Source: a virus. Taken from it: a DNA stretch of 26,647 nt. Both the position numbers and the translations under genes were made by a program. The DNA lies in IMG/VR virus record IMGVR_UViG_3300046733_001194, positions 1-26,647 of that record, one strand, 5' to 3'. The notes under the pieces were generated by a model. The model had not been told where the DNA came from, searched no databases, and saw only the letters and a list, made by a program, of their open reading frames with translations. Position 1 is the stretch's first letter; each line of letters opens with the position of its first letter. Shown here piece after piece: positions 1,887-26,647 of the stretch.

Positions 1887-1927
1887 AATAAAATTTGATA
1901 AATTTATTTATTAATGATATATTTATT

Positions 1928-2001
1928 TTTGTGGCTAGGGAGATATCCCGAAAAGAGGAATGTCCACCTCCTGCCACCAAACAAGGACTTTGCACAAGGA
2001 G
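1928..2001 (+). promoter_or_regulatory. Structured RNA leader, candidate translational switch
   Basis: The stretch 1931-2000 has 36 G or C in 70 bases, far above its surroundings. By eye it folds as a three-way junction. GTGGC 1931-1935 pairs with GCCAC 1973-1977 and can extend through U1928-1930/A1979-1981 past a bulged C. Inside it are GGGA-GATA-TCCC (1938-1949) and GAGG 1955-1958 with CCTC 1967-1970. The second loop has GTCC (1962-1965), which could pair with GGAC 1985-1988 as a pseudoknot. CACCTCCT at 1965-1972 equals the anti-Shine-Dalgarno core of 16S rRNA. Its CTCCT part can pair with the AGGAG (1997-2001) of the protease gene. That pairing excludes the junction, so two exclusive folds would hide or expose the ribosome site. 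I match it to no known riboswitch. A packaging (cos/pac) role near the terminase is an alternative. Confidence 0.5.
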
Positions 2002-2007
2002 ACAATT

Positions 2008-2565
2008 GTGAGCAAGAAAAAATCAGAATATAAACAAATAGAAATTCATACTAAAGAAGAAAACTTTTCACTTATAAGTAATAAAAAAAATAATTATGAT
2101 CTGTATGTTGGCGAGTTTGATGATGCAGAACACGGTCATAACATGATACTTAATAAATTGTCTCAATTAGAAGAAAAAGATACTTTAAACATTCATATAA
2201 GCTCGAATGGTGGTGTTGTAAGTTTGTTACTTAGTTACATAAACATTTTGCAAAAAACTACTGCTACAGTTAACGGTTATTTGAATTTTGGTTACTCCGC
2301 TGGAGCTTCATTGTTTGGTGCTTGTCAAAATAGATATATATACTCATATTCTTCATTGATGTATCATACATTCTCTCAAAGTCTGTATGGAAAATCTCAA
2401 GAGGTGCAATCAAATTTATCTTGTAACATAAAAGTAATGCATAATATGATGGATAAATTTTATTTAGGTATTAATAAAAAAGAATCTAACCAGCTTAAAG
2501 ATGGTAAAGATTTTTGGTTTGATGCAGATGAGATAGTAGATAGAAAAATAGCGGTAATGATATAA
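2008..2565 (+). CDS. ClpP-like serine protease
   Basis: A 185-residue ClpP-fold protease (crotonase/ClpP superfamily). Visible motifs are S-N-G-G (66-69), in the place of the ClpP oxyanion loop; G-Y-S-A-G (95-99) with nucleophile Ser97; and M-Y-H (118-120) with catalytic His120. A late F-D-A-D-E segment (171-175) probably supplies the acid. Phage ClpP-like enzymes often process prohead proteins, but this one sits before the terminase, and a separate DUF2213 maturation protease is present downstream. Its target is therefore unclear. The frame is open back to an ATG at 1960, but AAGGAG at 1996-2001 sits 6 bases before the GTG at 2008, which I take as the start. Translation may be controlled by the leader just upstream. 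Confidence 0.85.
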   Translation: MSKKKSEYKQIEIHTKEENFSLISNKKNNYDLYVGEFDDAEHGHNMILNKLSQLEEKDTLNIHISSNGGVVSLLLSYINILQKTTATVNGYLNFGYSAGASLFGACQNRYIYSYSSLMYHTFSQSLYGKSQEVQSNLSCNIKVMHNMMDKFYLGINKKESNQLKDGKDFWFDADEIVDRKIAVMI

Positions 2566-3138: not shown

Positions 3139-4498
3139 CATTGTTGAATGCAGAACAGACCTACTAACTTTTTCAAAGACTATTTTTAAAAGTCGCAAAG
3201 GTATAGACTGGGTAGAAAACTGGCATCATAGAGTTATATGCGAATATCTTGAGCGTGTTGTGATAGGCGATATTAAAAGGCTTATAATCAATATACCCCC
3301 TCGATATTCAAAGACAGAGCTAGCGGTTATTAACTTTATTGCTTGGTGTGTTGGTAATTATCCAGATAGCGAATTTATACACGCAAGTTATTCTAAAAGG
3401 TTAGCAACTAACAATACATGGAATGCTAGAGCTATAGTTGAGGGAGAGACCTTTACGAAAATATTCGGGAAAGCAGGACTAAGAAACGATAGTAACGCTA
3501 AGGATGAGTGGCGTACTAACGCAGGCGGTTGTGTATATGCTACTGGTGCTGATGGTACAATAACTGGCTACGGTGCTGGTGGTATGTCAACCAATTTTAA
3601 GGGTGCAATTATAATTGATGATCCGCACAAGGCAGGTGAAGCAAATAGCGATACAATGCGTAACAATGTAATAGACTGGTTTTCAACTACTATAGAAAGC
3701 AGAACAAACTCAAAAGATACGCCTATTATTCTAATTATGCAAAGACTTCACGAAGAAGACCTTAGCGGTTTCTTATTAAATGGTGGTAATGGGGAAGAGT
3801 GGACACACCTTAATATACCAGCTATTGATGATAATGGTTTGCCTTTGTGGGAATACAAACACAGTATAGAAGATTTGAAAAGACTTGAAAGTGCTAATCC
3901 TTATGTGTTCGCTGGTCAATATATGCAGATACCAGCACCTAAAGGCGGTGGATTATATAAGCAAGACTGGTTTAAATATTATCAAGTCGAGCCTGTATTT
4001 AAGTATAGATTAATGTTTGCTGATACTGCAATGAAAACTAAAGAAGCAAATGATTATAGTGTATTACAGGTATGGGGATATACGGCAAATAAAGACGCTT
4101 ATCTTATAGACCAGTTAAGAGGTAAGTGGGAAGCTCCAGAGCTGAAACAAATGACTTGCTCATTTTGGGAGAAGCATAAGAACTTATCTAATGGCTCATT
4201 AAGAAACTTGTGTGTAGAGGATAAGGCTAGCGGTACTGGTTTAATTCAATCGATTAAAAGAGATAATAATATAAATGTAAAGGCAATACAGAGAAGTATA
4301 GATAAGATAACAAGGGCTAACGATGCCGTTCCATATATAGCTAGCGGAAGAGTGTATTTTAGAGACGGAGCTGAATATTTATCTGAATTAGTACCAGAGC
4401 TTTTAATATTCCCAAATGGAAAACATGACGATCAAGTCGATGTGCTTAACGATGGTATATCAGAACTAGCTAAAAAAGCATCTTCATTTTTTGGTTAA
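3125..4498 (+). CDS. terL: Terminase large subunit (packaging ATPase/nuclease)
   Basis: A 457-residue motor that pumps DNA into the prohead and cuts concatemers. The ATPase half shows a Walker A-like P-P-R-Y-S-K-T-E (58-65), with Arg-Tyr-Ser in place of the usual Gly-x-Gly, as in part of the Terminase_6 group. Walker B is A-I-I-I-D-D-P (161-167), and a coupling-type segment (I-L-I-M-Q-R-L-H) lies near 202-209. The RNase H-like nuclease half shows F-A-D-T-A (Asp300), V-E-D (Glu365/Asp366) and K-H-D-D-Q-V-D (Asp435/436/439), the usual acidic metal ligands. Its start overlaps terS by 14 bases, with AAGG upstream. It is full length for the family. Confidence 0.95.
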   Translation: MQVNDIVECRTDLLTFSKTIFKSRKGIDWVENWHHRVICEYLERVVIGDIKRLIINIPPRYSKTELAVINFIAWCVGNYPDSEFIHASYSKRLATNNTWNARAIVEGETFTKIFGKAGLRNDSNAKDEWRTNAGGCVYATGADGTITGYGAGGMSTNFKGAIIIDDPHKAGEANSDTMRNNVIDWFSTTIESRTNSKDTPIILIMQRLHEEDLSGFLLNGGNGEEWTHLNIPAIDDNGLPLWEYKHSIEDLKRLESANPYVFAGQYMQIPAPKGGGLYKQDWFKYYQVEPVFKYRLMFADTAMKTKEANDYSVLQVWGYTANKDAYLIDQLRGKWEAPELKQMTCSFWEKHKNLSNGSLRNLCVEDKASGTGLIQSIKRDNNINVKAIQRSIDKITRANDAVPYIASGRVYFRDGAEYLSELVPELLIFPNGKHDDQVDVLNDGISELAKKASSFFG

Positions 4499-6984: not shown

Positions 6985-8037
6985 ATGAATAAATTAGAAA
7001 AAGATTATAATGGGTATGTTTCTGTTAATAGACGCCCTATTTCTAAGGCTGGTATTTTTGAATATTTAGGTTCTTCTATAGGTGCAGAAGATCCTAATAA
7101 AATATATAAAGTATATCGCCCAGCTGAGGAGCTATCAAATAAAGAAACTATTGATTCCTTTAAATTAGTTCCGTTGATTGATGATCATGAGATGCTTGGT
7201 ACTGATGCAACTCCAGCAGAGAACAAAGGAGTTCAAGGTACTACAGGCGAAGACATATACTTTGATGATGATACATTGTTTGGTAATTTAAAAGTTTATA
7301 GCGACGCTTTAAAAACTCTTATTGACGGAGGAAAAAAAGATTTATCACTTGGCTATAGGTGTGAATACGATTTTAAAGAAGGTATTTTTAATGGCGAAAA
7401 ATATGATGCCATACAAACAAAATTGAGAGGTAACCATGTTGCCCTTGTTGATAATGGGCGTATGGGCAAAGAAGTTAGCGTTTGCGATTCTGCAATAATA
7501 ACATTTGATAATAATGACATAACAACAGGAGAAATACCTATAATGAATGATGAACTACTAAAAGCTTTAGAAGAAATGATGAAGCCAATTATGGAAAAAA
7601 TAAATGATCTATCTGAAAAAATAGACAGCAAAAAAGTTGTCGAAGAAGAGGTAGAAGATGAAGAAGAAGAAGAAAATGTTGAAGTAGTTGAAGATGAATC
7701 TCAAGAAGATTTAGACAAAAAAGCTACTGATATGGAAGAAGAAAAGAAAGATATTGCTATGGATGCTAAAATATCTTTAAAAGCAGAGTTCAAAAGAAGA
7801 GATAAACTAGCTAGTGAAATTTCAAAAGTGGTTGGATCTTTCGACCATTTAGATATGGACTTAAAAGAGGTTGTTTCTTACGGTCTTAAAAAATTAGACA
7901 TTAAAGCAGATAAAGGTCAAGAGATTGCTACATTAAAAGGGTATCTTGCAGGTTCTAGCAAGGTAAATAATACTGTCGCTATGGATTCACAATTTCAAAA
8001 TAGTAAATTTATACCAAGTTATAATATCTTTAAATAA
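6985..8037 (+). CDS. DUF2213 prohead protease with C-terminal scaffold
   Basis: A 350-residue head maturation protein. The N-terminal half (1-170) matches the DUF2213 pattern: L-V-P-L-I-D-D-H-E (61-69) with probable catalytic His68, D-L-S-L-G-Y (119-124) with probable nucleophile Ser121, and G-N-H-V-A-L-V-D-N-G-R-M-G (149-161). The catalytic roles are my inference from the His...Ser order of phage prohead proteases. The rest is a highly charged coiled-coil scaffold with a long Glu-rich tract (about 210-235) and a C-terminal domain. A-M-D motifs recur (7756 and 7978) and match one in the capsid protein. The only AAGG lies 15 bases before the ATG, so initiation looks weak. Confidence 0.85.
   Translation: MNKLEKDYNGYVSVNRRPISKAGIFEYLGSSIGAEDPNKIYKVYRPAEELSNKETIDSFKLVPLIDDHEMLGTDATPAENKGVQGTTGEDIYFDDDTLFGNLKVYSDALKTLIDGGKKDLSLGYRCEYDFKEGIFNGEKYDAIQTKLRGNHVALVDNGRMGKEVSVCDSAIITFDNNDITTGEIPIMNDELLKALEEMMKPIMEKINDLSEKIDSKKVVEEEVEDEEEEENVEVVEDESQEDLDKKATDMEEEKKDIAMDAKISLKAEFKRRDKLASEISKVVGSFDHLDMDLKEVVSYGLKKLDIKADKGQEIATLKGYLAGSSKVNNTVAMDSQFQNSKFIPSYNIFK
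7543..8037 (+). CDS. Possible nested scaffold protein (internal start)
   Basis: Met187 of the protease/scaffold gene is preceded by AGGAG at 7527-7531 (11-base spacing), a better ribosome site than that of the full gene. It falls exactly at the border between protease domain and coiled coil. Initiation here would give a 164-residue scaffold without protease, the arrangement known from lambda C/Nu3 and Mu I/Z. Suggestive only. Confidence 0.4.
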   Translation: MNDELLKALEEMMKPIMEKINDLSEKIDSKKVVEEEVEDEEEEENVEVVEDESQEDLDKKATDMEEEKKDIAMDAKISLKAEFKRRDKLASEISKVVGSFDHLDMDLKEVVSYGLKKLDIKADKGQEIATLKGYLAGSSKVNNTVAMDSQFQNSKFIPSYNIFK

Positions 8038-13755: not shown

Positions 13756-14199
13756 ATGCTAATAAAACCTAAATTAATAGAGATAACTAATATCGATGGC
13801 GAAATTTTAAAATTCAATATTAGTCGTTTACCTGCGATTGTTGGCAGAGAGATCTTGGCTGGATATCCATCATCTTTAATTCCAAAGGTAGGAGATTACA
13901 AGGTAAATGAAACCTTAATGATTAAGCTTATGAGTTATGTAGAGGGATACAATGGCAACGATGAACCGATAGCATTAACAGGCATTCGTATGATAAACTC
14001 ATATGTTACAGATACTACAACATTAATGCTAATAGAGCTAGAAATGTTTAAATACAATTTCCCATTTTTAAAGTTTGAAAAAAGTAGAGGATTTTTATCT
14101 TCTTTTGTAAGTAAAATAAAAGATGATAGTTTTGTTGATAGTTGTGTTAATAAATTTAAAGTGGCCGCTTTCGATATTTACGCTAAAATGAAAAAATAA
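13756..14199 (+). CDS. Tail assembly chaperone, paralog A
   Basis: A 147-residue protein between the tube and tape-measure genes, where tail assembly chaperones lie. The N-terminus (M-L-I-K-P-K-L-I-E-I-T-N-I-D-G) and 'I-S-R-L-P-A-I-V-G-R-E-I-L' are shared with the following gene. Both then carry 'L-M/L-S/R-Y-V' and 'I-N-S/K-Y-V/I-T-D' helices. A run of six A's precedes the stop, but neither a -1 nor a +1 slip reaches the next gene, so the usual frameshift-made G/GT pair is not seen. AAAGGA precedes the ATG. Confidence 0.75.
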   Translation: MLIKPKLIEITNIDGEILKFNISRLPAIVGREILAGYPSSLIPKVGDYKVNETLMIKLMSYVEGYNGNDEPIALTGIRMINSYVTDTTTLMLIELEMFKYNFPFLKFEKSRGFLSSFVSKIKDDSFVDSCVNKFKVAAFDIYAKMKK

Positions 14200-14236: not shown

Positions 14237-14764
14237 ATGTTAATAAAGCCCAAGATTATACAAATTAAAGATATTGATGATATTGAATTAAAATACCAAA
14301 TTAGCAGAATACCTGCACTTCATTTTATTGACATTCTGAAAATATATCCTTTTGACAGTAAAAATATTCCAAAAATAGATAATGAAACATTATTGAGTTT
14401 ATTAAGATATGTATCTTACTATGATGGTGCTAGTTATATTATTTTAGATGATGAAGATAAAATCAATAAATATATTACTGATGCAGAGACACTTTTAAGG
14501 ATAGAAACACAGTTAATTCTTTATAATATAGAATTTATGAAAATTAGGAAAAAGTGTAGATTATACAACGGTACCGATGACTCACCATATCAATATGTAA
14601 ATATTGATGCTGGAGTTGCTTCGATAATAACAAATAAGTTCGCAACATTGTATGAGCTTAGTACAATATATGATTATGAAGACTATTCAAATATGCTCGA
14701 GATTATACAAGTTAATATTTCAAAAGAAATTTACGCACAAAATAAAGCAAGCAAAAAGAAATAA
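14237..14764 (+). CDS. Tail assembly chaperone, paralog B
   Basis: A 175-residue protein that is a clear paralog of the preceding gene: M-L-I-K-P-K-I-I-Q-I-K-D-I-D, I-S-R-I-P-A-L, D-I-L-K-I-Y-P, L-R-Y-V, I-N-K-Y-I-T-D-A-E-T-L. Its C-terminal half is longer and different, ending in a Lys-rich tail. It probably divides the chaperone work with paralog A, one copy acting as the long (GT-like) form without frameshifting. It has its own AGGATTAATAATG ribosome site. The tandem duplication is visible in the sequence; the division of roles is inference. Confidence 0.7.
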   Translation: MLIKPKIIQIKDIDDIELKYQISRIPALHFIDILKIYPFDSKNIPKIDNETLLSLLRYVSYYDGASYIILDDEDKINKYITDAETLLRIETQLILYNIEFMKIRKKCRLYNGTDDSPYQYVNIDAGVASIITNKFATLYELSTIYDYEDYSNMLEIIQVNISKEIYAQNKASKKK

Positions 14765-26085: not shown

Positions 26086-26647
26086 TATCTTTTTCCTTAA
26101 TATTTGAGTGATTAAATTTTGCATATAATCTATTACAGTTATCGCAGTAATCGCAGTAATCGCAGTAATCGCAGCAATCGCAGCAATCGCAGTAATCGCA
26201 GTAATCGCAGTTAAAGCAGTATTCGCAGTACTTGCAGTACTTGCAGTTATAGCAGTCATAGCAGTATTTGCAGTCATTACATTTTTCGCAATTTATGCAG
26301 TTATTGCAGTCATTACAGTTATCGCAGTTATCGCAGTCATTGCAGTTATCGCAGTTATCGCAGTCATTGCAGTTATTGCAGTTATTGCAGAAATAGCAGT
26401 AATCGCAGTAATCGCAGCAATCGCAGTATTTGCAGTTAAAGCAGTTATTGCAGTTATTGCAGTTATTGCAATTATTGCAATTATTGCATTTATAGCATTT
26501 ATAGCATTTATAGCATTTAAAGCAGTCATTGCAGTTATTGCAATTATTGCAATTAAGACAATTAAAGCAATTTATATTATTGACATTGTTTTCTTGAGCT
26601 TTATTAATATTTCCACCATAAAAGATATCAAGGAAATCTTGAGTAAC
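26078..26647 (-). CDS. Cys-x-x repeat protein, 49 cysteines in register (5' end outside window)
   Basis: On the minus strand one frame is open from the window edge to a TAA at 26078-26080: 189 residues without a start, so the gene begins beyond the window. After 26 polar residues (including Q-D-F-L-D-I-F-Y-G-G), cysteine occurs at every third residue for 145 residues: 49 cysteines with no break in register, 45 as TGC and 4 as TGT. Three more sit at x positions, giving 52. The x residues are mainly Asn, Asp, Tyr, Lys, Phe and Glu. An 18-residue polar tail follows. The stop overlaps the TM2 ATG by 8 bases. Such a chain could bind many metal ions or form a cross-linked rod; both are guesses. The repeat DNA is also open as Thr-Ala-Ile (minus) or Ala-Val-Ile (plus), but those frames lack a complete start-stop context. 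Confidence 0.75.
   Translation of the reverse strand, partial: VTQDFLDIFYGGNINKAQENNVNNINCFNCLNCNNCNNCNDCFKCYKCYKCYKCNNCNNCNNCNNCNNCFNCKYCDCCDYCDYCYFCNNCNNCNDCDNCDNCNDCDNCDNCNDCNNCINCEKCNDCKYCYDCYNCKYCKYCEYCFNCDYCDYCDCCDCCDYCDYCDYCDNCNRLYAKFNHSNIKEKDNE
26135..26569 (-). repeat. Degenerate 9-nt tandem repeat encoding Cys-x-x
   Basis: A GCA (43 of the 49 start GCAG or similar) or ACA triplet recurs every 9 bases, 49 times, from 26135 to 26567 (on the plus strand, GCA-GTN-ATN is the commonest unit). Synonymous codons are fixed by position: an Asn in the first x slot is AAT, and in the second usually AAC. That shows copying of whole 9-mers. It is not a CRISPR array: there are no spacers. Confidence 0.9.

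Follow-up and report, generated by a model that had tools for sequence, protein, structure and literature searches.

Organization of the locus

The window, that is, the whole stretch of viral DNA that was analyzed (26,647 nt), is displayed here at positions 1,928–2,565, which comprise a leader and the ClpP-like gene that it precedes. The gene order around the leader is DUF6948, a repeat protein, the leader, the ClpP-like gene, a weakly helix-turn-helix-like ORF, the large terminase and the portal. Because of the terminase and portal neighbours, and because the sequence comes from a virus record, the window is regarded as a phage fragment. The product of the ClpP-like gene matches PF00574 with an E-value of 2.1e-7, scored on the L001 protein, which is 100% identical; the PHROG matches of the latter are ATP-dependent protease and head maturation protease. 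The features of the leader are collected in Table 1. From the predicted promoter, transcription would begin at about 1930–1931, which corresponds to the 5' end of helix P1, and the diverged relative L002 has a promoter-like site at the corresponding position. No terminator was seen in the leader of the window or in that of L002. The ATG at position 1960 was also considered as the true start and rejected, since L002–L006, unlike the window, have it out of frame.

Table 1. Coordinates of the predicted and observed features of the leader and of the gene behind it.
Feature	Position	Strand	Basis
Predicted sigma-70 promoter, TTGATA-17-TATATT, TG before the -10	1895..1923	+	consensus scan, 10/12
int-alpA-type three-way junction RNA	1931..1977	+	RF02996 match, independent model R1, covariation
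P1 (GTGGC/GCCAC)	1931-1935/1973-1977	+	
P2 (GGGA/TCCC)	1938-1941/1946-1949	+	
J2/3, GAAAA	1950-1954	+	
P3 (GAGG/CCTC)	1955-1958/1967-1970	+	
P3 loop (L3), AATGTCCA, proposed switching element	1959..1966	+	family-wide complementarity to two downstream sites
pk1, GGAC, putative partner of L3 GTCC (1962-1965)	1985..1988	+	family z 21.9; predicted window duplex -6.5 kcal/mol
pk2, GGAGACA, putative, overlaps the Shine-Dalgarno sequence	1998..2004	+	family z 13.9; predicted window duplex -3.9 kcal/mol; weak in the window
Shine-Dalgarno, AAGGAG	1996..2001	+	sequence; conserved in L002-L006
ClpP-like / head-maturation-protease-like gene behind the leader, GTG start (2008-2010)	2008..2565	+	PF00574, PHROG

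An earlier note, made from the letters of the window, had described this leader as a G+C-rich three-way junction in which a mimic of the anti-Shine-Dalgarno sequence could block initiation. Its description of the letters is accurate. On recount, 36 of the 70 bases at 1931–2000 are G or C; CACCTCCT lies at 1965–1972, 24 bases 5' of the AAGGAG, matches the 16S rRNA anti-Shine-Dalgarno core and occurs only once in the whole window when both strands are counted. The Shine-Dalgarno (SD) sequence and the GTG start are where the note had placed them, and the three junction helices and the loop pseudoknot GTCC/GGAC that it had drawn are present at the positions listed in Table 1.

Several repeats and duplications are found elsewhere in the window. 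An ORF at 738–1049 consists almost entirely of Gly-Ser/Asp/Tyr hexanucleotide repeats (ATGGCT, about 45 copies) and is open in two frames, and a gene of 69-base tandem repeats (KDRKSMRKLIT...YLYC) occupies 1531–1847, immediately upstream of the leader. Tandem repeats of 9 bases, TATTGCAGT, run in about 47 copies from 26131 to 26572 at the window end, where the minus strand codes for TAI-type repeats. In the tail gene region, the adjacent ORFs at 13756–14199 and 14237–14764 are similar (MLIKPKLIEI... and MLIKPKIIQI...) and apparently represent a tandem duplication.

The leader is related to int-alpA RNA

A search of the window with Rfam at curated thresholds gave no match. A more sensitive scan of the leader aligned it over the full length of RF02996, the int-alpA RNA (model positions 1–71, window 1928–1986), with 32.6 bits and an E-value of 2.9e-5; this score does not reach the gathering score of 35.8 bits, and the element is therefore no formal Rfam member. 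A covariance model, R1, was built independently from an alignment of 63 relatives from which the window's own group was excluded, and finds the window at 1929–1979 with 50.9 bits and an E-value of 1.7e-13. Together, the two matches imply that the window element is an int-alpA homologue, although it formally falls under the Rfam cut-off. The helices that the earlier note had outlined are those of the RF02996 consensus, and the int-alpA layout, with P1, P2 and P3 joined by UA, GAAAA and CU/CUG strands, is present in the window element. The note had known of no class into which the leader would fit; judged by these alignments, it is a diverged int-alpA-type leader. None of the riboswitch, ribozyme and thermometer classes of Rfam gave a covariance-model match to it, nor did a DNA search of the window leader against 50,697 phage records find a match.

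A pattern on the shared core retrieved 99 stretches in viral contigs and, with the other closing pair, a further 29; bacterial genomes yielded 47. All 16 pattern loci that were scanned match RF02996, 12 of them above the 35.8-bit cut-off. The relatives share with int-alpA the same three-way junction and the CUAG...CGAAAAG...CCUG core in full-length alignment, and many of them pass the cut-off that the window does not reach. The name int-alpA derives from a position between integrase and alpA, which is a matter of context and no sequence criterion. This placement is absent in the window, where the element has its own predicted promoter and precedes the ClpP-like gene, and many relatives likewise have other locations. 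int-alpA-type RNAs occur in phages and prophages. Of 229 genomes sampled from the proteobacterial class to which a Stutzerimonas genome belongs, 30 contain them, as do 13 of 149 Planctomycetota genomes. Rfam classifies the family as 'Gene; sRNA'. In the literature searched, which did not cover the family's original description, neither the term 'int-alpA RNA' nor RF02996 was found; int-alpA is entered in one paper's table of putative E. coli sRNAs.

Covariation of the junction and role of the CCTCC strand

The covariation analysis on homologous leaders that the earlier note had proposed bears the junction out, with compensatory changes in all three helices among the 63 relatives. In their alignment, 92.4% of the cells are paired compared to 65.1% in shuffles, and the covariation score is 0.674 as against 0.167 in shuffled alignments and less than 0.14 in all slid controls. 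P1 is short in leaders of the L002 type, and within the window's own group (L001–L006) L3, pk1 and pk2 are invariant, so that no covariation is seen inside the group. A rod-like fold (-19.2 kcal/mol) is favoured by energy alone over the junction computed without its pseudoknot (-16.8 kcal/mol), in a type of calculation that cannot model pseudoknots. The evidence for the junction is for this reason comparative.

The mechanism that the note had put forward, in which the CCTCC of the 3' strand of P3 blocks the AAGGAG once the junction opens, appears very improbable. It agrees with the window, where CTCC is able to pair with GGAG and its bases are taken up by P3 when the junction forms, but it does not extend to the family. 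The P3 pair is GCGG/CCGC in 64 of 94 relatives and GAGG/CCTC in 7 of 94, with a second base pair that covaries freely, so that the strand reads CCGC in most relatives and tracks its P3 partner. Its complementarity to the SD zones shows no excess over chance (z 0.5, n=94; z 0.3, n=20). The conserved SD-complementary part is instead the loop of P3. Of the two mutually exclusive folds touching the SD sequence that had been postulated, the leader, the junction, the loop pseudoknot and the existence of two states are thereby retained, and the putative blocker is reassigned from the CCTCC strand to the P3 loop.

The P3 loop has two alternative targets

We measured the longest Watson-Crick helix that the P3 loop can form with different parts of its leader, and reassigned the loops among the leaders as a control. 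The main set consisted of 94 non-redundant leaders, and an independent set of 36 was collected from two bacterial groups with the Rfam model and aligned by covariance model in order to avoid a core fixed by the search pattern. In the main set, L3 is complementary to the zone following P1 (pk1), with a mean helix of 4.97 bp compared to 3.12 ± 0.08 in the control (z 21.9), and also to the SD zone, from -18 to -3 (pk2), with 4.79 compared to 3.54 ± 0.09 (z 13.9). The first ORF bases, the sequence ahead of P1 and the P2 loop, taken as negative targets in the same 94 leaders, gave z values from -1.9 to 0.1. The independent 36 members reproduce both signals (pk1 z 10.0, pk2 z 10.8, ORF control z 0.8), and so do the 20 members that pass a strict filter against similarity of leader or protein (pk1 z 9.0, pk2 z 6.3, controls 0.3 and 0.0).

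At least three loop bases are common to the pk1 and pk2 pairings in 67 of 71 members. Since the same loop bases are used, the two pairings are mutually exclusive, and their predicted strengths are nearly equal, with median duplex energies of -7.5 kcal/mol for pk1 and -7.8 kcal/mol for pk2. The pk1 site mostly lies 4–14 nt after P1, and the distance between pk1 and pk2 is mostly 13–15 nt. Loop, pk1 and pk2 vary in concert among the related leaders L021, L102, L022 and L051: the loop CTTCAC of L021 is accompanied by GTGAAG and TGAAG, CATCAC of L102 by GTGATGA and TGATG, and CGTCAC of L022 by GTGACGA and TGACGAGGG. A pk1 helix of at least 4 bp upstream of the SD zone is absent in 17 of 94 members; some of these leaders are so short that they have no room for both sites.

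These data also bear on a static leader, in which the pairing of L3 with pk1 would merely stabilize the mRNA or space the start, and pk2 would be a by-product of pyrimidine-rich loops. pk1 is indeed more significant than pk2 in the main set, and the members with short leaders have one site only. The shuffling of partners, however, preserves the composition of loops and SD sequences, yet pk2 stands out with z values of 13.9, 10.8 and 6.3, and both sites change in concert with the loop in the four related leaders named above. We consider a static leader quite unlikely, and favour a loop that exchanges partners.

In the window, the helices of L3 with pk1 and pk2 are just 4 bp each and not individually significant. 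The GACA of pk2 pairs with TGTC of L3, and if an A is bulged out, the GG of pk2 could add two further pairs with CC. Because 20 of 93 foreign loops pair equally well with the window leader, the case for a switch in the window rests on the family, for which comparison supports it well and from which the window would inherit it.

Genes behind the leaders

Where a gene is recognizable, its start codon almost always lies on the strand of the junction and 27–47 nt beyond it, and the corresponding range in the independent set is 29–50 nt. An upstream ORF on the same strand ends no more than 60 nt from P1 in 62 of 79 members. P1 is closely preceded by a -10-like box in 22 of 90 members, compared to 2.2 expected; the box of the window scores 4/6. 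The genes behind the leaders are phage and island genes of diverse kinds, and encode HNH and endonuclease VII nucleases, DUF1376 replication-like proteins, primase, Rha, KilA-N, ORF6N, anti-repressor Ant, MT-A70, integrase, DUF6387 and many unknowns. A guide-RNA-like role for HNH nucleases was considered and discarded, as many of the genes are non-nucleases and the loop has its targets in its own leader.

In L028 (58–684), a leader of the window type lies ahead of a ParB_N-like gene and not of a ClpP-like gene, with an RNA core, a Shine-Dalgarno sequence and first codons that are the same as in L002. For this reason the leader looks portable, and leader and cargo are apparently exchanged between phages. 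One phage contig, L059, contains two leaders with different loops (4113–4154 and 7810–7851), both situated before anti-repressor Ant-like genes. Planctomycetota genomes carry up to eight int-alpA-type copies each (L235, L240, L226 and L241–L247, in genomes G294 and G012); in these multi-copy genomes, two copies form a tandem with a spacing of about 120 nt and lack a nearby start codon, and the loop AGACCTGTCA is common to several copies.

In a further reading, the junction would act as the aptamer of a metabolite- or temperature-sensing riboswitch, with the two pseudoknots as its output. The strands CUA, GAAAA and CUG are strongly kept, also across distant phyla, as they would be in a binding pocket; in members found without the core pattern, CTA is present in 38 of 41, GAAAA in 28 of 41 and CTG in 35 of 41. 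This suggests that the junction binds a partner or adopts a fixed tertiary fold. The genes behind the leader, however, have no common pathway and suggest no ligand, and purely structural causes can also conserve junctions. A sensing aptamer is in our judgement unlikely.

Proposed switch and comparison with known systems

We propose, with a probability of roughly two-thirds, that the int-alpA-type RNA works in cis, as a 5' leader controlling translation of the downstream gene by switching L3 between pk1 and pk2. The junction would present a single loop, L3. In the on state, L3 would pair with pk1 just 3' of P1 and leave the SD sequence free, whereas in the off state it would pair with pk2, the second copy of the site some 13–15 nt further on, which overlaps the SD sequence, and initiation would be blocked. 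That pk2 pairing would lower translation is inferred from this overlap. The two states would interconvert, and the choice between them may be made by a factor on the conserved junction or by the order of folding during transcription. In the window, the gene under the proposed control would be the ClpP-like protease. Sequence comparison supports the junction, both pairings, their mutual exclusion, their near-equal predicted strength and the fixed place before start codons.

A functional parallel is the C4 RNA of phages P1 and P7, which is processed by RNase P and acts in trans (PMC5320573). The C4 RNA of phage P1 is likewise a three-way junction, with loops that match a2 and b2, two sites further down its own transcript, of which b2 is located just before icd. 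The likeness to C4 (RF01695) lies in a three-way junction in a phage leader with loop matches to two downstream sites, one of them covering the ribosome-binding site, and loop complementarity of this kind is present at the family level in int-alpA-type leaders. By contrast, C4 uses two loop regions (a' and b') for two different sites, whereas the int-alpA-type RNA has one loop and two alternative copies of its target. RF01695 gave no match at E ≤ 10 in the window stretch and R1 does not match the C4 RNA of P1, so that homology was rejected; the relation is a likeness of working and no membership.

The same logic, with one of the two sites at the ribosome-binding site (PMC5320573), would fit a small antisense RNA, if the junction were released or processed and acted in trans on this leader where other transcripts or superinfecting phages carry it. 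The Rfam class 'Gene; sRNA' and the anti-repressor-like genes behind two members point in the same direction. Release as a separate RNA is nevertheless at odds with a window leader in which no terminator is seen, with the narrow distance kept between element and start codon, with a pk1 position that is a good place for a cis pseudoknot, and with the failure of R1 to match the C4 RNA of P1. We therefore hold a trans-acting RNA to be rather unlikely, and the evidence obtained here favours, in place of the sRNA type given by Rfam, a cis leader with two loop targets.

T4 attains the same purpose in a different way, as mRNA structures hide the ribosome-binding site of gene e and of homing endonucleases (I-TevI, mobE), including before HNH endonucleases (PMC3014915), and some int-alpA-type leaders likewise precede HNH or endonuclease VII genes. 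The T4 structures are simple and several of them are bypassed by an internal late promoter, in contrast to the conserved junction and the two competing pseudoknots proposed for the int-alpA type. The leader of T4 gene 32 also contains a pseudoknot, through which translation of the gene behind it is controlled (PMC3014915), and the likeness consists of a phage-leader pseudoknot ahead of a regulated gene. The gene 32 pseudoknot, however, is bound by the product of its own gene, which nucleates cooperative binding, and an alternative SD pairing is not described for it in PMC3014915.

With a confidence slightly above even, we propose that int-alpA-type RNAs are widespread, portable translational switches of phages, in which a conserved junction that may bind a factor sets the loop between a decoy and the SD sequence. 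If this is true, the module moves among genes of many kinds, including genes for endonucleases, replication proteins, anti-repressors and a ClpP-like protease, and an entire class of switches now sits in Rfam as sRNA genes. The int-alpA RNA, known mainly as a structure, gains a mechanism that can be tested by mutating specified bases, and the choice between sRNA and cis leader becomes decidable. Should the mechanism be correct, a translational switch that is invisible to gene annotation would act on many phage genes.
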